Origin: Lachnospiraceae bacterium
GTDB lineage: Bacteria; Bacillota; Clostridia; Lachnospirales; Lachnospiraceae
Assembly: GCA_017889125.1 (NCBI GenBank)
Contig: JAGHER010000168.1
Coordinates: 1 to 34,296 of the forward strand
Length of the DNA: 34,296 bases
Reading direction: 5' to 3'
The notes beneath the pieces are model-generated. The model did no database searches and had not been told where the DNA came from. It saw only the letters and a list, made by a program, of their open reading frames with translations. This document shows positions 3,562 through 33,334 of the stretch, one piece after another; the first letter of the stretch is position 1; each line of letters starts with the position of its first letter. A program made the position numbers and the translations under genes.

Positions 3562-4326
3562 TTACAGCTGAGCCAGCGCCTTAAGGGCATCCTTGCGGAT
3601 AAGCATTTCATAATGCTCCTCATAATATGCCTCTGTAGCGTAATCATGCCGGATCTTTGTGCCGTATTCAGCCAGAATATTGCAGATCCTGCTGAAATCC
3701 AGAGAATCGGAATTACGTTTTACCAGCAGATAGTAACGGCCGGTGGCCGGATTTTTATAGAGGCAGCTTCTGCCGTCAAAGGAAGGCTCGACCACCTTTG
3801 CGGCATCGCAGATCTGATCGAAAGAGGAAAACATGAAAATGCGGACATTGTCGGTGGATGAAGGCTGAAGAGCATTTTCTTTTGCATCGGCAGCGGGAGC
3901 ATCCGCTTCCTGGGAATCCTGGGTGATGGCAGCGCTGTCCTTTTCCTGGGCAGCATCTTTCAGGTACTGCATCAGTCCCTCCGCACCTTCCAAAAGCTCG
4001 CTGGTAAGGTCATTGAGCAGGCTGTCCTCGTCTTCTGACATAGGTGAAAATTTGGCAAAACGAGTGTCCAGCTCCTCCGGGTCCTCCATCTTGGTGATGA
4101 CCAGCATGACGCTCTCATTGGACAACGGGATGGCCTCCACCATCAGGGGAATATCATCCGCCTCAAATCCGACCTCATTGGATGCCTTTTGAATCATTTC
4201 ACGAAACAGATTCTTTGCTTTCTCGCTGCCGTAGGCCAGTTCGCTTAAATTCAGATTGCGGGCGCTCAGATCGAAATTATTTAGGGTACAGCGAATCTGA
4301 TTTTCACTTATGCGTTCTATCTTCAT
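3562..4326 (-). CDS. mecA: Adaptor protein MecA
   Basis: MecA (254 residues) is the adaptor that delivers unfolded or regulatory proteins, such as ComK in Bacillus, to the ClpC-ClpP protease. The N-terminal domain MKIERISENQIRCTLNNFDL is diagnostic for substrate binding. An acidic linker follows (about 95-160, rich in Asp, Glu, Ala and Ser), then a C-terminal domain (about 160-254: VRIFMFSSFDQICDAAKVV, ending with YEEHYEMLIRKDALKALAQL) that contacts ClpC. Length matches the family. Start ATG 4326 follows GGAAGTG; an overlapping out-of-frame ATG at 4330 is ignored. No competence genes are present, so its substrate here is unknown. Confidence 0.9.
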   Translation of the reverse strand: MKIERISENQIRCTLNNFDLSARNLNLSELAYGSEKAKNLFREMIQKASNEVGFEADDIPLMVEAIPLSNESVMLVITKMEDPEELDTRFAKFSPMSEDEDSLLNDLTSELLEGAEGLMQYLKDAAQEKDSAAITQDSQEADAPAADAKENALQPSSTDNVRIFMFSSFDQICDAAKVVEPSFDGRSCLYKNPATGRYYLLVKRNSDSLDFSRICNILAEYGTKIRHDYATEAYYEEHYEMLIRKDALKALAQL

Positions 4327-4537
4327 TCATAATCACTTCCTATCCTGTCGGTTTCCAGATTGGTAAATTTGCAATGGAAGAATGATAAACTTCTTCAATA
4401 ATAATATACTATACTATATCACAAAATAGCAATTACTATGAAAAATTTTTTTGAAAAAGTTAAGAGATTTGAAATTAGGTATTGTAAAATTATGTAAAAT
4501 ATAGTAAAATATTTCCAGAGATGATTTTGGGGAGGTG
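4327..4537. promoter_or_regulatory. AT-rich divergent promoter region between mecA and the kinase gene
   Basis: This spacer is strongly AT-rich. On the minus strand a TATATT-like element in 4395-4425 with TTGCTA upstream could serve mecA. Towards the kinase, three head-to-tail 10-bp units ending in GTAAAAT (4481-4510) repeat a possible -10 hexamer (TAAAAT) once per helical turn. No -35 sits at a clean distance, so the exact promoters are uncertain. Confidence 0.4.
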
Positions 4538-4652
4538 ATGGTTTGGGGACTGGATTTTAGCTGGAAAATATGAGGTTTGCCGGGAGATTGGCAGCGGGAG
4601 GACAGGGACTGTATATCTGGTCAGACACCGGGAGCTGGGAGAATACCGGGCG
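4521..4652 (+). other. Displaced N-lobe coding sequence of the kinase: no usable in-frame start
   Basis: Read in the kinase frame, 4560-4658 encodes AGKYEVCREIGSGRTGTV and then YLVRHRELGEYRAVK, a textbook kinase glycine loop and the AVK lysine strand. This frame is closed by TGA at 4536-4538 and has no ATG, GTG, TTG or CTG between that stop and GTG 4653. A strong site, GGGGAGGTG (4529-4537), sits in front, with ATG 4538 and TTG 4543 in the other two frames and ATG 4521 in frame but cut by the TGA. A one-base change in the G run (4545-4548) or T run (4555-4558) would join a start to the kinase. Confidence 0.8.
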
Positions 4653-6062
4653 GTGAAGACGGTGAGAAAGGACAGCGTCCGCTATGAGACCTTCCGCAGG
4701 GAGGCGCTTCTTCTTAAAGGCCTGCGCCATCCGGGGATTCCGGTGATTTATGACCTTGAGGAGGACGAAAATTTCGGTTATCTGATTGAAGAGTATCTTC
4801 AGGGGGATTCGCTGGAGACCATAGCCGGAGAGCGCTCGCCGCTGCCCATCCGCAGCATACTGCAGTACGCCATACAGATCTGCAGCGTGGTAAGCTATCT
4901 GCATTCAGCAGGTCCGGAGCCCATCCTTCACCTGGATCTGCAGCCGAAGAATCTTCTGATCTGCGGCCATGCAGTGAAGCTGATTGATTTTGACCAGGCA
5001 TCTACCCGCGCACAGGCGAATCAGATCAGGCGGAGGTTCGGTACCGTGGGCTTTGCGGCTCCGGAGCAGTATGATTTTACAAGAGAACTGGATGAACGCA
5101 CAGATATTTATGCCATTGGCTGTCTCCTTTTCTATCTGACCACAGGAAGCTGCCCGGACAGGAAGATCACCCCTGCTGTATTGGGGCAGAAAATGTGGAG
5201 CCGCGAGGCTGGCCGGATTGTAGCCGCCTGTCTGGAGCCGGACGGGGATAGGCGGTATGGATCAGCAGCTTTGCTGCAAGGAGATCTGGAAGCGCTTTTG
5301 CGGGATATCCCCTCATCTCTGGTGATTGCGGTGTATGGCAATGAGCCGTGCACCGGTGCGACTCACCTAAGCCTTGCGCTTTGCGCCAGTCTGTGGCGGA
5401 AGGGAATCACAAACCGCTATGAGGAGTGCCATCCCTTTGGAAATATCCGCAGGCTTCAGGAGAAGGGCAGCCGGATTGATGAAAATGGCTGCTTTCGGGC
5501 CTGGGGCTGTATGCTGAAGCCCTATTATGGCCGGCAGGCTTCATTTTTGCCGGGAGCCGGGCCGGTAGTGATTCAGGACAGAGGGGCGCTGGAACGTGCG
5601 GATGGACTGTATATTTCGGAGGAGGAACCAGCCGCCGTTATATTAACAGCTGGAGGCAAGTGGTGGAACCGGCCGACGGATGAGGAATTTATCCGGATTT
5701 ATGAAAAACGCCTTATTCTGCTGTACGATTTTTCTCCTGGAAGCATCGGACTTTCCAGGCCCCGGGTGAAGCTTCCCGGCAGGATACTGCGGATGCCTCT
5801 CTTTGCCAATCCATTTGTTCCGGACCGCCGGGCAGAGCAGTGGATGGATATGCTGTGGAGCTGCCTGGTGAAGATTTTTGAGGAGCAGGAGCTGGACTTA
5901 CAGGCTGTGGAGAAAGAGTGCATGCCGGGAGCGCGCTTTCGGCGGGAAACGCTGAGCCGCAGACTCCAAAGTAAGGAAAGCTGGACCAGGAGGCTTTCCC
6001 AGCAGGCAGCAGGACTGATGACATCGATGAAAGCGGGAAGGCGTAAAAGGCGGCAGCAGTAA
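4653..6062 (+). CDS. Ser/Thr protein kinase fused to a Lys-less MinD/CpaE-like domain (5' end frame-disrupted)
   Basis: The open frame from GTG 4653 gives 469 residues, but that GTG is the valine of the AVK strand, so the true protein should begin about 40 residues earlier. Kinase landmarks are the lysine right after that valine, HLDLQPKN (about residues 90-97, catalytic Asp and Asn), LIDFDQAS (DFG variant), the APEQYD loop and DERTDIYAIGCLLF. The C-terminal half (about 220-430) starts IAVYGNEPCTGATHLSLAL, like a Walker A strand whose lysine is replaced. It continues with VVIQDRG and RILRMPLFANPF, matching the order of strands in the next gene product. No membrane segment is seen, so it is probably cytoplasmic. 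The kinase call is firm; the second domain is an inference from pattern. Confidence 0.85.
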   Translation: MKTVRKDSVRYETFRREALLLKGLRHPGIPVIYDLEEDENFGYLIEEYLQGDSLETIAGERSPLPIRSILQYAIQICSVVSYLHSAGPEPILHLDLQPKNLLICGHAVKLIDFDQASTRAQANQIRRRFGTVGFAAPEQYDFTRELDERTDIYAIGCLLFYLTTGSCPDRKITPAVLGQKMWSREAGRIVAACLEPDGDRRYGSAALLQGDLEALLRDIPSSLVIAVYGNEPCTGATHLSLALCASLWRKGITNRYEECHPFGNIRRLQEKGSRIDENGCFRAWGCMLKPYYGRQASFLPGAGPVVIQDRGALERADGLYISEEEPAAVILTAGGKWWNRPTDEEFIRIYEKRLILLYDFSPGSIGLSRPRVKLPGRILRMPLFANPFVPDRRAEQWMDMLWSCLVKIFEEQELDLQAVEKECMPGARFRRETLSRRLQSKESWTRRLSQQAAGLMTSMKAGRRKRRQQ

Positions 6063-6182
6063 ATGGCGGAAGAAGCAAATGATGGAATCTGCAGCTGGGA
6101 GGAAGCGCAAATGCTGGAATCTGCAGCTGGGAGGAAGCGCAGATGCTGGAAACTGCAGATGAGGGAGACACAAGCATGGTGA
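6063..6182 (+). other. Short alternative reading frame across the 32-bp repeats
   Basis: ATG 6063 overlaps the kinase stop region (TAAATG) and opens a 39-codon frame, MAEEANDGICSWEEAQMLES and onward, ending at TGA 6180-6182. It is out of frame with the MinD-like gene. Removing one 32-bp repeat would put it in frame and give an N-terminus MAEEANDGICSWEEAQMLE running straight into the annotated protein. It may be the older start of the downstream gene; translation now is unknown. Confidence 0.35.
6079..6158 (+). repeat. 32-bp tandem direct repeat, two full copies and a partial third
   Basis: Copies start at 6079, 6111 and 6143. The first two agree in 30 of 32 bases; the third diverges after about 15. 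Each begins with ATG (ATGATGG or ATGCTGG) and ends with GGGAGGAAGCGC, so each repeat carries a ribosome site for the ATG of the next. Because 32 is not a multiple of 3, the three ATGs lie in three different frames. Confidence 0.9.
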
Positions 6183-6790
6183 GATTAGATACAGAAAGGC
6201 GAGATGCTGCAGATGCGGTTACCATCGGCGTTGCATCTGCGGGGGAAGGCTGCGGAGCCACACATTTTGCATTGCTTTTTGCCAATTATCTGGCGGCGGT
6301 AGAGCGGAAGCGGACAGCTGTTCTGGAGTGGAAAGAGCAGACGGCATTTGGACAGCTGGGAAAGATCTGTGCGGGAGAGAATGGCCTGGATCCCTTTTCT
6401 GTGCTTGGTGTGGACTATTATCCTCAGAGCGGCGCCAGAGAGTTAGGCCGATGCCTTAAGGAGTACCAGGTTCTTCTTCTGGATTTTGGAAGTCTGGAGG
6501 AGGCGGATGCACCGCTGTTTTTCCAGTGCGGGATCTGCTGTTTCCTGGCCTCTTTGAATGAATGGAAAATCGGCGGGCTGCTTTGCCGCCGACAGTGGAT
6601 TCTGCAGGGAAGAAAGCAGTGGAATTATTTAATGGTCTTTGGAAGCGAGGAGGCACGCCGGGAAGTGGAAAGAAGATACCATCTTGCCTTCCAGCGGATC
6701 CCGTTTGCGCCGGATGCATTTTCCATTGGCAGAGAGATGGCGGCATTCCTGTCTAAGATCTGGGAACGGAGCAGACCGGGGGACCAGTAA
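6143..6790 (+). CDS. MinD/CpaE-like P-loop-fold protein with degenerate Walker A
   Basis: The 215-residue protein has the strand order of the ParA/MinD/CpaE family: VTIGVASAGEGCGATHFAL (about 31-50), where a Walker A would sit but GAT replaces GKT; RTAVLEW; VLLLDFGSLEEAD (Walker B-like, Asp kept); YLMVFGSEE; and FQRIPFAPDAFS. Loss of the lysine makes ATP hydrolysis doubtful. It resembles the C-terminal half of the kinase just upstream, so the two are probably paralogous domains working together. Start ATG 6143 has GGGAGG 8 bases before it. The gap to the kinase (80 bp) is filled with the tandem repeat. CpaE-type proteins position secretion or pilus machinery, but no tad/pilus genes are here, so the role is open. 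Confidence 0.65.
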   Translation: MLETADEGDTSMVRLDTERRDAADAVTIGVASAGEGCGATHFALLFANYLAAVERKRTAVLEWKEQTAFGQLGKICAGENGLDPFSVLGVDYYPQSGARELGRCLKEYQVLLLDFGSLEEADAPLFFQCGICCFLASLNEWKIGGLLCRRQWILQGRKQWNYLMVFGSEEARREVERRYHLAFQRIPFAPDAFSIGREMAAFLSKIWERSRPGDQ

Positions 6791-6991
6791 AATTGACCGA
6801 GAAGGGTTTACAGGAAACGCTTACAGGAAACGCCTGCGGGAAATCGGCGGAGAATCTGAGCGCAGATGCAGATCCAGCAGGGAGGCCGCGTCGAGGGGAA
6901 GTTAATATGTCACGGTATAAACCTCCATTGGATACGGCGCGGACTGACTGTTGTCAGAACCACAGAGCAGGGCAAAACGGAGGATAAGGAT
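6791..6991 (+). other. Spacer with short direct repeat and a possible tiny ORF
   Basis: TTACAGGAAACGC occurs twice, about 14 bases apart (near 6807-6833). ATG 6907, behind GAGGGGAAG, opens a 26-codon frame (MSRYKPPLDTARTDCCQNH...) ending at TAA 6985-6987, 4 bases before the next gene. It might couple translation of that gene. I have no family match and treat it as doubtful. Confidence 0.25.
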
Positions 6992-7342
6992 ATGGGTGAG
7001 GATCGCAGAAGAAAGAAAAATCACAAAGAACAATACGCATACATGGAGCAGCTGAAGAATTATCAAAATCAGGGCGTGCCGATCTATATTGACGGGCGGA
7101 TCACACAGCAGGAGAAGGAATGGTTCAAGATCTTTGAAATCCGGGAGGACGGCGCCGTATATATGGCGGATTATGTAAATACAGATGACGGACAGCTGAC
7201 CGAGATCCATTTTGACCTGGTGTATCTGGATCTTGACGCCCATCAGGCCTGGGAGAATCAGAAGCGCCTGGATGAGATGGTGCGGAAAGCGCAGCTGGAG
7301 CACTATAAAGCGCTTTTAAAAGGCTGCAGAAGGCCGCGGTAA
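6992..7342 (+). CDS. Small hydrophilic protein of unknown function
   Basis: I do not recognise a named family. The 116-residue protein starts at ATG 6992, with GGAGG 7 bases upstream; a longer open frame to 6866 has no ribosome site. It begins with a basic stretch (MGEDRRRKKNHKEQYAYMEQ) and has a compact middle with a beta-strand pattern (VPIYIDGRITQQEKEWFKIF, then DGAVYMADYVNTDDGQLTEI and HFDLVYLDLD). It ends in a charged helix (about 85-116). No membrane segment or cysteine pair is seen. It follows the kinase and MinD-like genes on the same strand with about 200 bp between, so co-transcription is possible. Confidence 0.65.
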   Translation: MGEDRRRKKNHKEQYAYMEQLKNYQNQGVPIYIDGRITQQEKEWFKIFEIREDGAVYMADYVNTDDGQLTEIHFDLVYLDLDAHQAWENQKRLDEMVRKAQLEHYKALLKGCRRPR

Positions 7343-7690
7343 TCTTTCTATAGTCATGCATATGCGGGGAAAGGAGGCGGATGCAGGGTGGCTTGACGGT
7401 ATTTGCACAGCCGGATGTAATGAAAAATAACAGCCATTTCAGCCTGTAAAAGTCCGGCAGTCAAAAGAAGCAGCCGTTCAGGAAATGTTCAAAAAAATTT
7501 AAAAACATACCGGAGGCTTTATGGTATAATGACTGCAAAGCTATGCGATAATGGCTGAAAAGCAGTCATTATACCTGCGCCGGTTCGGGCGAAGCGAAGC
7601 AGACCAAATAGAACCGTGCGCATCCCCAGGAGGGGGAATAAATACTTTTCCGTATTGTGCTGCGGATATTTTTGATGGAAGGATGTGCAA
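7343..7690 (+). promoter_or_regulatory. 348-bp non-coding region: promoters and structured leader of the GH18 gene
   Basis: An extended -10 (TGGTATAAT, 7522-7530) would start transcription near 7537. A weaker pair (TTGACG, 17 bp, TGTAAT) lies near 7392-7420. Downstream, TATAATGACTGC (7525-7536) is repeated inverted at 7562-7573. TGCGC-CGGTTC (7576-7586) pairs with GAACCG-T-GCGCA (7611-7622). TCCCC/GGGGA (7623-7637) and AATAC/GTATT (7641-7656) form two more hairpins before the ribosome site GGAAGGA. I do not recognise a known riboswitch class, but the density of helices suggests a folded 5' leader. Confidence 0.5.
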
Positions 7691-9346
7691 ATGATGAAAA
7701 AAATTGTCCCGGTGCTGATTGCCATCGGCTTGGCGCTCTGTGCGTTTATCGGGTATCTGGGATACAGGGCGGTGCAGAAATACTGGCCCACCAAAGAACC
7801 AGCGGATCTGGAGGCCTACTACAAGGTATCGGGGCAGGAGACTGCAGTCTTCCTGAACAATGAGCTGCAGGAGGAGACCGCCCTTTTCCAGAATAATCAG
7901 GTATACCTGCCAGTGACATGGATTAATGCGTTGATCAACGAACGGTTTTACTGGGATGAGAATGAGCAGCTGCTGGTCTACGCCCTGCCGGATTCGATTG
8001 TCTATGCTGATGCGGAGACGAAAAGCAGCGGGGGAACGCCGTATCTTCAGGTTGTAGGCCAGGAGGCGTACCTGTCAGCGGATCTTGTGGCGTCCTATAC
8101 GGATATTCGGGTGGCATCTTATACGGGAGATGCGGTTAAACGGATTTTCATTGATACCACATGGGATGCCGAGGAGTGGAATGATTTAAAGCGCGGCGGA
8201 GCCATCCGGGAGCGGGGAGGCGTGAAGAGCCCTGTGGTTGTTCAGGAGGAAAAGGGCGCTGCTGTGCTGGTTCTGGAGGAGATGGACCGCTGGTGCCGGG
8301 TGAGGACCGAGGACGGGCATATTGGTTATGTGGAGAAACACCGTCTGGGAGAAGGCGATACCATCACCTACGTAAGCACATTTGAGGAGCCGGTTTACGA
8401 GAATATTTCCATGGATGAGAAGGTCTGCCTGGCCTGGCATCAGGTGACATCGGCGGCGGCCAATGGAAGCATTGAGGCATACCTGGAGAATACGAAGGGG
8501 ATTAATGTGATTTCGCCAACCTGGTTTTCACTGACGGACAATGAAGGGAATTTTACCTCCCTGGCCGATGCCTCCTATGTGGAATATCTTCATGAACGAG
8601 GGATTCAGGTCTGGGCGCTGCTTGATAATTTCAGCGGGGATGTGCAGTCGGAAATCCTTCTGTCCAGGACATCGGTGCGCCGTAAGCTGATTGACGGGCT
8701 TATGGAGGAGGTGCAGACCTATGATCTGGATGGACTGAATCTGGATTTTGAGGGGCTGAAAGAAAGCGCCGGTCCACATTATATTCAATTCATCCGTGAG
8801 CTTTCTGTTGCCTGCAGACAGGCGGGTATTGTGCTTTCTGTCGATAATTATGTGCCTGCAGCCTACAATTCCTTCTATAATCGAAAGGAGCAGGGAATTG
8901 TAGCGGATTACGTAATTGTTATGGGGTATGATGAGCACTATGCCGGCGGAGAGCCAGGGCCGGTGGCTTCCTATGATTATGTAAAGCAGGGAATTGAGAA
9001 TACATTGGAACTGGTGCCCAGGGAAAAGGTCATCAATGCGGTTCCCTTCTATACCAGAGTGTGGAAGGAGAGCGAGGAGGGAAGAAGCTCCGACGCTCTG
9101 GGGATTGCCGATGCGAAGGACTGGGCCCAGCGGAAGAATGTGGAGCTGGTCTGGCAGGATGACCTGGGGCTTTACTATGGAGAGATTGATGATGAAGGTG
9201 TCAGGAAGCAGGTCTGGATGGAAGAAGAGCGCTCCCTGGGACTTAAGATGGAGCTGATCCGTGAGCAGGATCTGGCCGGTGTGGCCTGCTGGAAGCTGGG
9301 GTTTGAACCGGCTTCGGTCTGGGATGTGGTAAAGGTAAATGAGTGA
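7691..9346 (+). CDS. Membrane-anchored glycoside hydrolase family 18 protein with SH3b domain
   Basis: The 551-residue protein begins at ATG 7691 behind GGAAGGA (a GTG at 7685 is in frame but too close). An N-terminal transmembrane anchor (about 3-24, IVPVLIAIGLALCAFIGYL) puts the rest outside the cell. Residues about 40-150 resemble the copper-amine-oxidase N-like fold common in clostridial wall enzymes (FLNNELQEE...VYLPVTWINALI). An SH3b domain follows (about 175-220, DRWCRVRTEDGHIGYVEKHR), then a GH18 barrel with the catalytic motif DLDGLNLDFEG near 345-354 and YVIVMGYDEHY and VACWKLGFE. GH18 proteins of this layout, like SleL/YaaH, cut the glycan of peptidoglycan. It leads a run with the lipoprotein phosphoesterase and cwlD, so a role in wall or spore cortex remodelling is likely. 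Confidence 0.85.
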   Translation: MMKKIVPVLIAIGLALCAFIGYLGYRAVQKYWPTKEPADLEAYYKVSGQETAVFLNNELQEETALFQNNQVYLPVTWINALINERFYWDENEQLLVYALPDSIVYADAETKSSGGTPYLQVVGQEAYLSADLVASYTDIRVASYTGDAVKRIFIDTTWDAEEWNDLKRGGAIRERGGVKSPVVVQEEKGAAVLVLEEMDRWCRVRTEDGHIGYVEKHRLGEGDTITYVSTFEEPVYENISMDEKVCLAWHQVTSAAANGSIEAYLENTKGINVISPTWFSLTDNEGNFTSLADASYVEYLHERGIQVWALLDNFSGDVQSEILLSRTSVRRKLIDGLMEEVQTYDLDGLNLDFEGLKESAGPHYIQFIRELSVACRQAGIVLSVDNYVPAAYNSFYNRKEQGIVADYVIVMGYDEHYAGGEPGPVASYDYVKQGIENTLELVPREKVINAVPFYTRVWKESEEGRSSDALGIADAKDWAQRKNVELVWQDDLGLYYGEIDDEGVRKQVWMEEERSLGLKMELIREQDLAGVACWKLGFEPASVWDVVKVNE

Positions 9347-31306: not shown

Positions 31307-33334
31307 ATGAGTGTGGGGGAAAGGAAGGAGTATTATTTAGTTCCGGGGACGATATTACAGAATGAATATGTAGTAGAGGATGTATTGCAGGAAAGCAGTG
31401 TAATTGTATATGCCGGACATCGAAAGAGTACTAAGGTAAAAGTCCTTATTGAAGAGGATTTTTATCCTGAATTAAATATCAGAGAAGCTGGGAATAAACA
31501 GGTGGCTGTTCGCTCTGAGGCGGCAAGGGAACGCTATTTGTATCTTTTAAGGCAAAGGGAAGAAATTCTGGATCATATGGTTATGCTGTATAATTGGTGT
31601 GGTGTGGGATATTACCGGGAGTATTTTCGGGAGAATGGAACGCAGTATGCCATCCGGGAGTATGTAACCGGAGAGACGCTGGATAATTATTTAGCCCGCA
31701 GGGGTACAATGTCGTTATCAGCTGCTGTATCTGTTGCTTCCAATATTGCCATGCGGCTCGAAAAGCTGCATGAGTTTAGCCAGTATCATGGCTGTCTCGC
31801 GCCGCAAAATATATTCATGCAGACAGATGGGGGGATTGGCATTTTAAATACCAGTTTGTGTTCTTTTTGCGGACTAGGAAAGAGAAGACCGTTGACCTGC
31901 TATTCTGCTCCTGAGCAGTATGAGGGGATAAATGAAAGCGAGGCGGATGTGTATGGCCTTGCCGGTATTTTTTATACTATGCTTACCCGGAATCCAATAC
32001 CCAGTGCAGCAGAGCGAATGCGGGGGAAGGCAGTGAAGCGGCCGTCGGAAATGGGAATCAGCTTACCCCGAGGGATTGAGATTGCGCTGATACAGGCACT
32101 GCAGCTTGACCGGCATGAAAGAATGACGCTGAAGGATTTTCGTCAGGCTTTGCTGCTTCCTCAGCATAACGGTGGACAGAAGACGTTCAATGCGAAAGCT
32201 AATTTGATATTGTGTATGGGATGTATGCAGTATTATAGCAAAAACAGTGACAACTGTCCGCATTGCGGGCGGCGCTCTAGTTCGCGGCGGCGTCATGCAG
32301 ACGATATTGAGCTGGGAACAGTAATTGCCAAACGCTATGTGCTGGGAACACGGATTGGACGGGGAGCTTTTGGCATTACATATATTGGGTATGATTTAGA
32401 AACCGGAACCCGATTGGCAGTTAAGGAATATATGCCTAAAGATGAGGCAGAGCGAAAACCTGATCAGATGGTAACTACCTTAAACCTTGGAGACGTAGAG
32501 GACATACGTCTATTGTGGAAATTTGACGAAGGGCGTCAGCGTGTATTAGATGAGGCCAGGTTAATGAAGCAATTTGCGAGGCGTCAGGAAATTGTAAAGG
32601 TGTTTGATTGTGTAAGGGAAAATAATACGGTTTATATTGTAATGGAGTATCTGGAAGGGGAAACGCTGAAGGAGTGCCTAAAAAGACGGAAGCAATTGCC
32701 GGAGGAGGAGGCGATTGAAAAGACCGTTCAGATTTTAAAGGGCGTGCAAAGGATGCATTTTCAAAATGTGATTCATCGGGATATTGCGCCGGATAATATT
32801 TTTATTTTGAAGAACGGCCAGATTAAGATACTCGATTTTGGTGCGGCAAGATACGTGACCGCACAATCTACTACCCATCCGGTTATCCTAAAGCGAGGCT
32901 ATGCGCCGCCGGAGCAGTACAAATCTAACGGCAGGATTGGCCCCTGGACAGATGTTTATGCCGTTGCGGCGACCCTTTACCAGATGCTTACCGGCCTTAT
33001 ACCGCCGGAGCCTATGTATAGAGCACAGGACGGTGAATTGATGCTGTCGCAATTGGGCGTGAAAGTTTCAAAAAAGACAGAACGTGTGCTGAAAGAGGCG
33101 CTGGCATTGGATTATACAGAGCGTGTGTCTTCGGCAGAGGAGTTTGAAGCAAGACTTTTAGAAGCAGCAAGAAAATCCCCATCTGGACGATTGAAAGATT
33201 TTTTTAGGGGAAAATCTGCTGGGAATATGCGAAGAGAAAATCTTCGGTATGACGATATTCCGCCTACGGTGTGGGAGCCTGGAACTGAGCCGGAGGGTTG
33301 CCGGGACACTGTATATGAGGAGGATGATTTTTGA
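31307..33334 (+). CDS. Tandem pseudokinase / zinc ribbon / Ser-Thr kinase fusion
   Basis: The 675-residue protein starts at ATG 31307 with AAGGAG 8 bases upstream, inside the mfd end. Residues about 10-285 follow the kinase fold (GETLDNYLARRG, YSAPEQYEGINESEADVYGL) but read HGCLAPQNIF where HRD is expected and LNTSLCSF where DFG is expected, so this part is a pseudokinase. A zinc ribbon follows (about 303-325: CMGC ... CPHC). The second kinase (about 340-625) is complete: IGRGAFGITY, LAVKEYMP, HRDIAPDNIF, ILDFGAARY and YAPPEQYKS. No transmembrane segment is seen. Its DNA is visibly more AT-rich than mfd, hinting at separate origin. A terminator and adhE follow. Confidence 0.9.
   Translation: MSVGERKEYYLVPGTILQNEYVVEDVLQESSVIVYAGHRKSTKVKVLIEEDFYPELNIREAGNKQVAVRSEAARERYLYLLRQREEILDHMVMLYNWCGVGYYREYFRENGTQYAIREYVTGETLDNYLARRGTMSLSAAVSVASNIAMRLEKLHEFSQYHGCLAPQNIFMQTDGGIGILNTSLCSFCGLGKRRPLTCYSAPEQYEGINESEADVYGLAGIFYTMLTRNPIPSAAERMRGKAVKRPSEMGISLPRGIEIALIQALQLDRHERMTLKDFRQALLLPQHNGGQKTFNAKANLILCMGCMQYYSKNSDNCPHCGRRSSSRRRHADDIELGTVIAKRYVLGTRIGRGAFGITYIGYDLETGTRLAVKEYMPKDEAERKPDQMVTTLNLGDVEDIRLLWKFDEGRQRVLDEARLMKQFARRQEIVKVFDCVRENNTVYIVMEYLEGETLKECLKRRKQLPEEEAIEKTVQILKGVQRMHFQNVIHRDIAPDNIFILKNGQIKILDFGAARYVTAQSTTHPVILKRGYAPPEQYKSNGRIGPWTDVYAVAATLYQMLTGLIPPEPMYRAQDGELMLSQLGVKVSKKTERVLKEALALDYTERVSSAEEFEARLLEAARKSPSGRLKDFFRGKSAGNMRRENLRYDDIPPTVWEPGTEPEGCRDTVYEEDDF

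Follow-up and report, generated by a model that had tools for sequence, protein, structure and literature searches.

The initiation of translation at codons other than ATG, GTG or TTG is a rare route by which bacteria hold a protein at low abundance or under tight control, and all 64 codons were reportedly covered by Hecht in 2017. The account given for Streptomyces sigR describes few bacterial genes with non-standard starts as experimentally characterised, and assigns to sigR itself a GTC start, replaced by GTT in 2 of 34 species, which follows the Shine-Dalgarno sequence (SD) AGGAGGTG and is repressed by IF3 (PMC5472188). In Staphylococcus aureus, cvfC1 (AUU), ccpN (AUA) and infC (AUA) are described with extended SDs, where the weak codons yielded about 10% of the AUG reporter level, rising to as much as 30% for ccpN in rich medium (PMC13009471). 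Engineered AUU starts are reported to function in clostridia (PMC11040787), IF3 is described as tolerating only Watson-Crick pairs at the first two bases of the codon (PMC10158994), and one survey gives a single switch to AUU among 61,358 reconstructed AUG starts (PMC5622118). An earlier report of a Lachnospiraceae kinase with a non-standard start was not found in the open-licence papers that were searched.

The kinase gene described here lies on contig 228 of a 3.99 Mb Lachnospiraceae draft genome (266 contigs), and the whole 34,296-nucleotide stretch that was analysed is referred to as the window. As it is described, sigR resembles the kinase in being a regulatory gene with an extended SD (AGGAGGTG) and a conserved start that is apparently not ATG, GTG or TTG, with GTT in some species, whereas the reported sigR codon is almost fixed (GTC in 32 of 34 species) within one genus and the kinase codon varies across many genera. 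The described ccpN and cvfC1 likewise pair a weak codon with an extended SD, an arrangement that is conserved across species; however, they encode a repressor and a small protein rather than a Hanks-type kinase, and the codon of the kinase is not fixed. The infC gene shares with the kinase family an ATT following GGAGG, although infC is autoregulated by its own product and the kinase would be a downstream target. The PASTA kinases PknB, Stk1 and PrkC comprise the closest solved folds and the best NCBIfam match of the kinase, which nevertheless scores far under the cut-off of that family and matches it with the kinase part alone.

The three forward frames of the window were read around the start of the gene. 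The kinase frame is closed by a TGA at 4536, and its next ATG, GTG or TTG is GTG 4653, in agreement with the original prediction, which had placed no start codon of the kinase frame between these two coordinates. ATG 4538 and TTG 4543 both lie outside the kinase frame, one in each of the remaining frames. Downstream of the TGA the frame reads W-F-G-D-W-I-L-A-G-K-Y...IGSGRTGTVY...EYRAVK, and GTG 4653, at which the automatic list of open reading frames opens the gene, is the V of AVK, within the AVK strand. A -35/-10 layout comparable to that of the window was observed by eye, at matching distance, in many orthologues, and the GAGATGATATTG block was matched at 9 or more of its 12 positions in 40 of the 84 loci tabulated below, against about 3.9 expected from simple shuffles. 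Judged by its distance from the -10 element, this block would mark the 5' end of the kinase mRNA. The block also looks like a second SD (GAGGTGAT). The coordinates of these features are given in Table 1.

Table 1. Features of the kinase locus in the window, with strand and basis of assignment.
Feature	Position	Strand	Basis
Likely kinase promoter (TTGTAA, 17 nt, TAAAAT)	4482..4510	+	consensus scan
Conserved block GAGATGATTTTG (family consensus GAGATGATATTG)	4518..4529	+	
Extended SD GGGGAGGTG	4529..4537	+	sequence; SD scoring in 45-locus set
TGA closing the kinase frame, created by the SD itself	4536..4538	+	sequence, genus alignment
Putative start codon position, TTT, 6 nt past GGAGG	4542..4544	+	genus comparison
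Out-of-frame TTG, start in the alternative with a -1 slip (GGGG at 4545-4548)	4543..4545	+	
Hanks-type Ser/Thr protein kinase (predicted) with C-terminal P-loop-like motif, 506 aa from 4542	4542..6062	+	
Downstream P-loop-like gene, syntenic with the kinase	6143..6790	+	

The protein exhibited the sequence features of a Hanks-type Ser/Thr protein kinase, with a Pfam Pkinase match (PF00069, 5.4e-39) that begins at residue 11 of window:4539-6059 and with the motifs GSGRTG, AVK, HLDLQPKN and DFD. The motif at about 4984-4995 is DFD in the window and in its nearest relative G002, and DFG in the other nine members of the genus. Read from 4542, the predicted structure contains a complete N-lobe (mean pLDDT 86) with strands beta1 at residues 10-18, beta2 at 23-29 and beta3 at 35-42. 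As GTG 4653 is residue 38, a start there would leave the protein without beta1, beta2 and the first part of beta3. The earlier warning against calling the gene from this codon is upheld. The best solved fold matches were S. aureus PknB/Stk1 (4eqm, 9ymt), and the best NCBIfam match was the PASTA kinase model NF033483, with 135 bits against a curated cut-off of 450 and over residues 6-206 only, so that the protein does not score as a PASTA kinase and matches the model with its kinase part alone. The C-terminal region harbors the P-loop-like sequence GNEPCTGATHLSLAL, and the next gene also contains one, the P-loop label being our own in both cases and supported by no family model. Folded as a single sequence, the C-terminal region reached a mean pLDDT of 34, and this model was left unused.

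The orthologue of the kinase was detected in all 11 genomes of the genus of the window, with matching upstream DNA, and the ten other proteins share 52-72% identity with that of the window. The start regions were compared in a strand-corrected DNA alignment, which exhibited one layout in 11/11 members, consisting of the promoter region, the GAGATGAT block, the SD, a spacer of about 6 nt (7 in L007) and a non-canonical codon, followed in every case by G/S-D/E/N-x and then by ATT TTA and the kinase. The ribosome site at 4529-4537, which the original prediction had placed directly in front of the kinase, indeed belongs to this gene. At the start position the window has TTT, five members have ATT, three have GTT, and ATA and AAT occur once each; in the nearest relative, G002, ATT takes the place of the TTT. 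An in-frame ATG, GTG or TTG was observed in none of the 11 orthologues 4-12 nt past the SD, and in none within 30 nt before it; L004 contains an in-frame TTG 15 nt past the SD, and L007 and L009 contain one farther upstream, above the presumed mRNA start. With codons numbered from the conserved Ile of ATT TTA, the coding signature (second base invariant, third base variable) was present in the genus at codons -3 and -2 but absent from -4 and -5, and upstream of the Ile it was weak outside the genus. Since the feature is common to 11 genomes from different projects, neither a sequencing error nor a fresh indel accounts for it, and the kinase gene is, on this comparison, intact and neither misassembled nor dead. 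Coupling through a short leader reading frame ending at the TGA of the SD was dropped as a candidate, such a frame occurring within the genus only in L002, L003 and L004. RNA folding of the start region at four loci gave no structure shared by all (z of -0.05 and 1.11 for the window, 0.88 for L003, -0.67 for L009 and -1.81 for L010). In L005-L012, that is in 8/11 members, a CCGGA located 5' of the SD was seen by eye that may pair with TCCGG in the coding start and enclose the SD and the start; two of these loci were among those folded (z -0.67 and -1.81), and the pairing is absent from the window and its two nearest relatives.

With a profile built from the proteins of the genus, relatives were detected in 67 of 397 sampled genomes of the family (31 of 150 in an earlier sample), and a scan of named genomes added loci from C. 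symbiosum, C. citroniae and C. fessum, among others. In total, 84 distinct loci were tabulated, of which those with an HMM profile score of at least 330 form a 45-locus set that comprises 11 from the genus of the window, 24 from a further 20 coded genera and 10 from named records, for which genus and code could not be matched, and thus at least 21 genera. Rows were dropped as duplicates (L044/L045, equal to L007/L002, and L074-L083, equal to loci of the genus), for start regions identical to those of L093, L123 and L095 (L124, L089 and L138), for a missing N-terminus (L060), or as distant or partial matches (L096-L109, with L102 retained for one comparison). An in-frame canonical codon lies 4-12 nt past the SD in 3/45 loci (L110, L116, L119), while in 13/45 the only such codons lie within 30 nt upstream of the SD, in 6/45 only farther upstream, in 3/45 only as a GTG inside the SD and in 1/45 (L004) only as the TTG 15 nt past it; the remaining 19/45, eight of them in the genus and including the window, lack any canonical codon ahead of the conserved Ile. 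Some 6 nt past the SD the family often has ATT, ATC or ATA, and otherwise GTT, GTA, ACG or others. At a spacing of 5-8 nt, ATT, ATC or ATA was observed in the kinase frame in 21/45 loci, compared with 3 loci in each of the remaining frames, with 24/45 loci lacking them at this spacing; within the genus they occupy the start position in 6/11 members, the window itself having TTT. The SD exhibited a mean score of 12.6 of 13.5 over the 45 loci; scored in the same way, that of mecA averaged 10.7.

Among the 39 lower-scoring relatives, ATG or TTG occurs exactly at the aligned position -4 in seven (L066, L070, L072, L126, L143, L153, L157), and the start can therefore be placed at this position by homology. 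The homology to an ATG start would involve few loci, since only 13 of these 39 less closely analysed relatives carry a canonical codon anywhere from -7 to -3 relative to the Ile; L066 and L070 have their ATG after a short spacer, and L047 has a TTG at -13. On a 52-row tree the start codon changed at least 27 times, and between canonical and non-canonical 4 times, as counted by a quick method with codons typed by hand. Selection against ATG is not claimed, since with at least 27 changes few canonical codons are expected by mutation alone.

Canonical starts prevail in mecA and in the paralogous kinases, which served as controls. In 45/45 loci with a match, the divergent neighbour mecA has a canonical codon at its homologous start, ATG in 42 and GTG in 3, and 38 of these loci are shared with the 45-locus kinase set. 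All 19 paralogous kinases of the genus contain an in-frame canonical codon upstream, located within 6 codons of the aligned position in 17 of them and 23 codons upstream in the other two. The infC gene exhibited ATT AGC downstream of GGAGG in 11/11 genomes of the genus, with an in-frame ATG four codons later, and the analogy with E. coli infC suggests that it starts at this ATT. In these infC loci (L127-L137), ATT AGC is preceded by GGAGGTGTACGACT in ten genomes and by GGAGGTGTACGGCT in one, and the kinase start of L010 shares the string ATTAGCGAG with infC. The order mecA (divergent), kinase, P-loop gene, small gene and GH18 (3562-9346 in the window) recurs in many genera, which marks an old conserved locus. 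The gene downstream of the kinase gave a weak NCBIfam match to a CpaE-like model (E 0.0023, 17.1 bits, cut-off 154.45), and a second, distant kinase-like stretch was observed in the same window at 32483-33055, within an open frame of 744 codons.

The comparison favours a possibility that the original prediction had overlooked, namely a start codon other than ATG, GTG or TTG. We consider it probable, by a clear degree short of certainty, that the SD places the ribosome on a non-standard codon about 6 nt downstream and that expression is low. The kinase mRNA would begin near 4518 with a leader of about 25 nt carrying the extended SD at 4529-4537, which would set the ribosome on codon 4542-4544, in the family usually not ATG, GTG or TTG; the initiator tRNA would begin at this weak codon, and the protein would begin just before G-D-x-I-L-x-G-K-Y with its N-lobe complete. 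Because IF3 discriminates against such codons, the output of the kinase would be low and probably IF3-sensitive, rising when IF3 discrimination drops. We infer the initiation at 4542-4544, the low expression and the IF3 dependence alike from comparative sequence data. The codons TTT (window) and AAT, GCT, GCA, ACA, TTC and TTA (relatives) are a poor or very poor match to the initiator anticodon, and the pairing described for IF3 (PMC10158994) likewise speaks against them; the non-canonical start is less certain for the TTT of the window than for its relatives bearing ATT.

An alternative that applies to the genus yields the same protein from a start one base later, at TTG or ATG (TTG 4543 in the window, SD spacing 7), followed by a -1 slip on the GGGG at 4545-4548, at the second codon; we regard it as unlikely, though deserving of consideration. 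Slippage or programmed frameshifting had been among the causes proposed in the original prediction, and in its favour an out-of-frame TTG or ATG with an SD spacing of 5-8 nt adjoins the site in 9/11 genus members, while GGGG occurs in 8/11 when the G-run is compared across these related genomes. It is also in line with this alternative that the first base of codon -4 is variable in the genus while the next two are nearly fixed, and that all five members lacking ATT and ATA at -4 possess the offset codon. The proposal fails, however, in L010 and L011, which have no offset start, and in L007, which has no GGGG, and outside the genus a canonical codon stands in this phase in only 1/34 loci. Moreover, an NTT followed by a Gly codon yields TTG automatically, and the use of GGG at -3 in 8/9 Gly-bearing members is unexceptional, 6/43 invariant fourfold columns being equally uniform.

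Instead of starting past the SD, the ribosome might use a canonical codon of the leader, such as the ATG, GTG or TTG of the GAGATGATATTG block, on an almost leaderless message read in frame through the SD. The 13/45 loci with an in-frame codon within 30 nt upstream of the SD, no stop intervening, and the 6 more with one only farther up agree with this, and the 13 may start there instead, so that this mode could apply to some genera. For the window and its genus it runs against the alignment, where 0/11 members have such a codon within 30 nt, where the TTG of L007 and L009 lies above the presumed mRNA start and where the ATG of the block is out of frame or ahead of an in-frame stop, and the 19/45 loci without any canonical codon before the conserved Ile argue against it more widely; as the general explanation it appears quite improbable.

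An assembly error or an inactivated gene in this one genome is a very improbable explanation. The draft consists of 266 contigs, and TTT may reflect a miscalled base or a recent mutation of the ATT present in G002; however, the frame and the missing start are common to 10 other genomes from different projects, 507 codons are open, and the promoter and the SD are conserved. The sequencing error and the inactivating indel that the original prediction had listed as possible causes are ruled out as general causes by the same lack of an in-frame start in these 10 genomes. AUU initiation at the conserved ATT TTA (4554), 18 nt past the SD, draws on the identity of both codons in 11/11 members, a single codon being kept by all 11 in only 14/155 invariant degenerate columns and these two being adjacent, but it is hardly credible given that codons -3 and -2 bear the coding signature, that GTT or another codon mostly stands at this place in the other genera and that 18 nt greatly exceeds a workable SD spacing.

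Initiation directed by the SD to a non-standard codon about 6 nt downstream is thus retained, and the kinase is most likely, from the comparison of its start regions, an unusually codon-variable case of the known SD-directed non-canonical start. More tentatively, and with the balance of our judgement still against it, these loci may form a Lachnospiraceae-type kinase family held at very low, IF3-tuned expression, in which the SD fixes the start and the codon drifts (ATT, ATC, ATA, GTT, GTA, ACG, GCA, TTT and others). Gene callers limited to ATG, GTG and TTG would remove the ATP-binding loop of the kinase or misplace its start. Spanning at least 21 genera, most of them without a standard start past the SD, such a family would lend itself to tests of the extent to which the SD by itself fixes the start, and of whether IF3 sets kinase levels.
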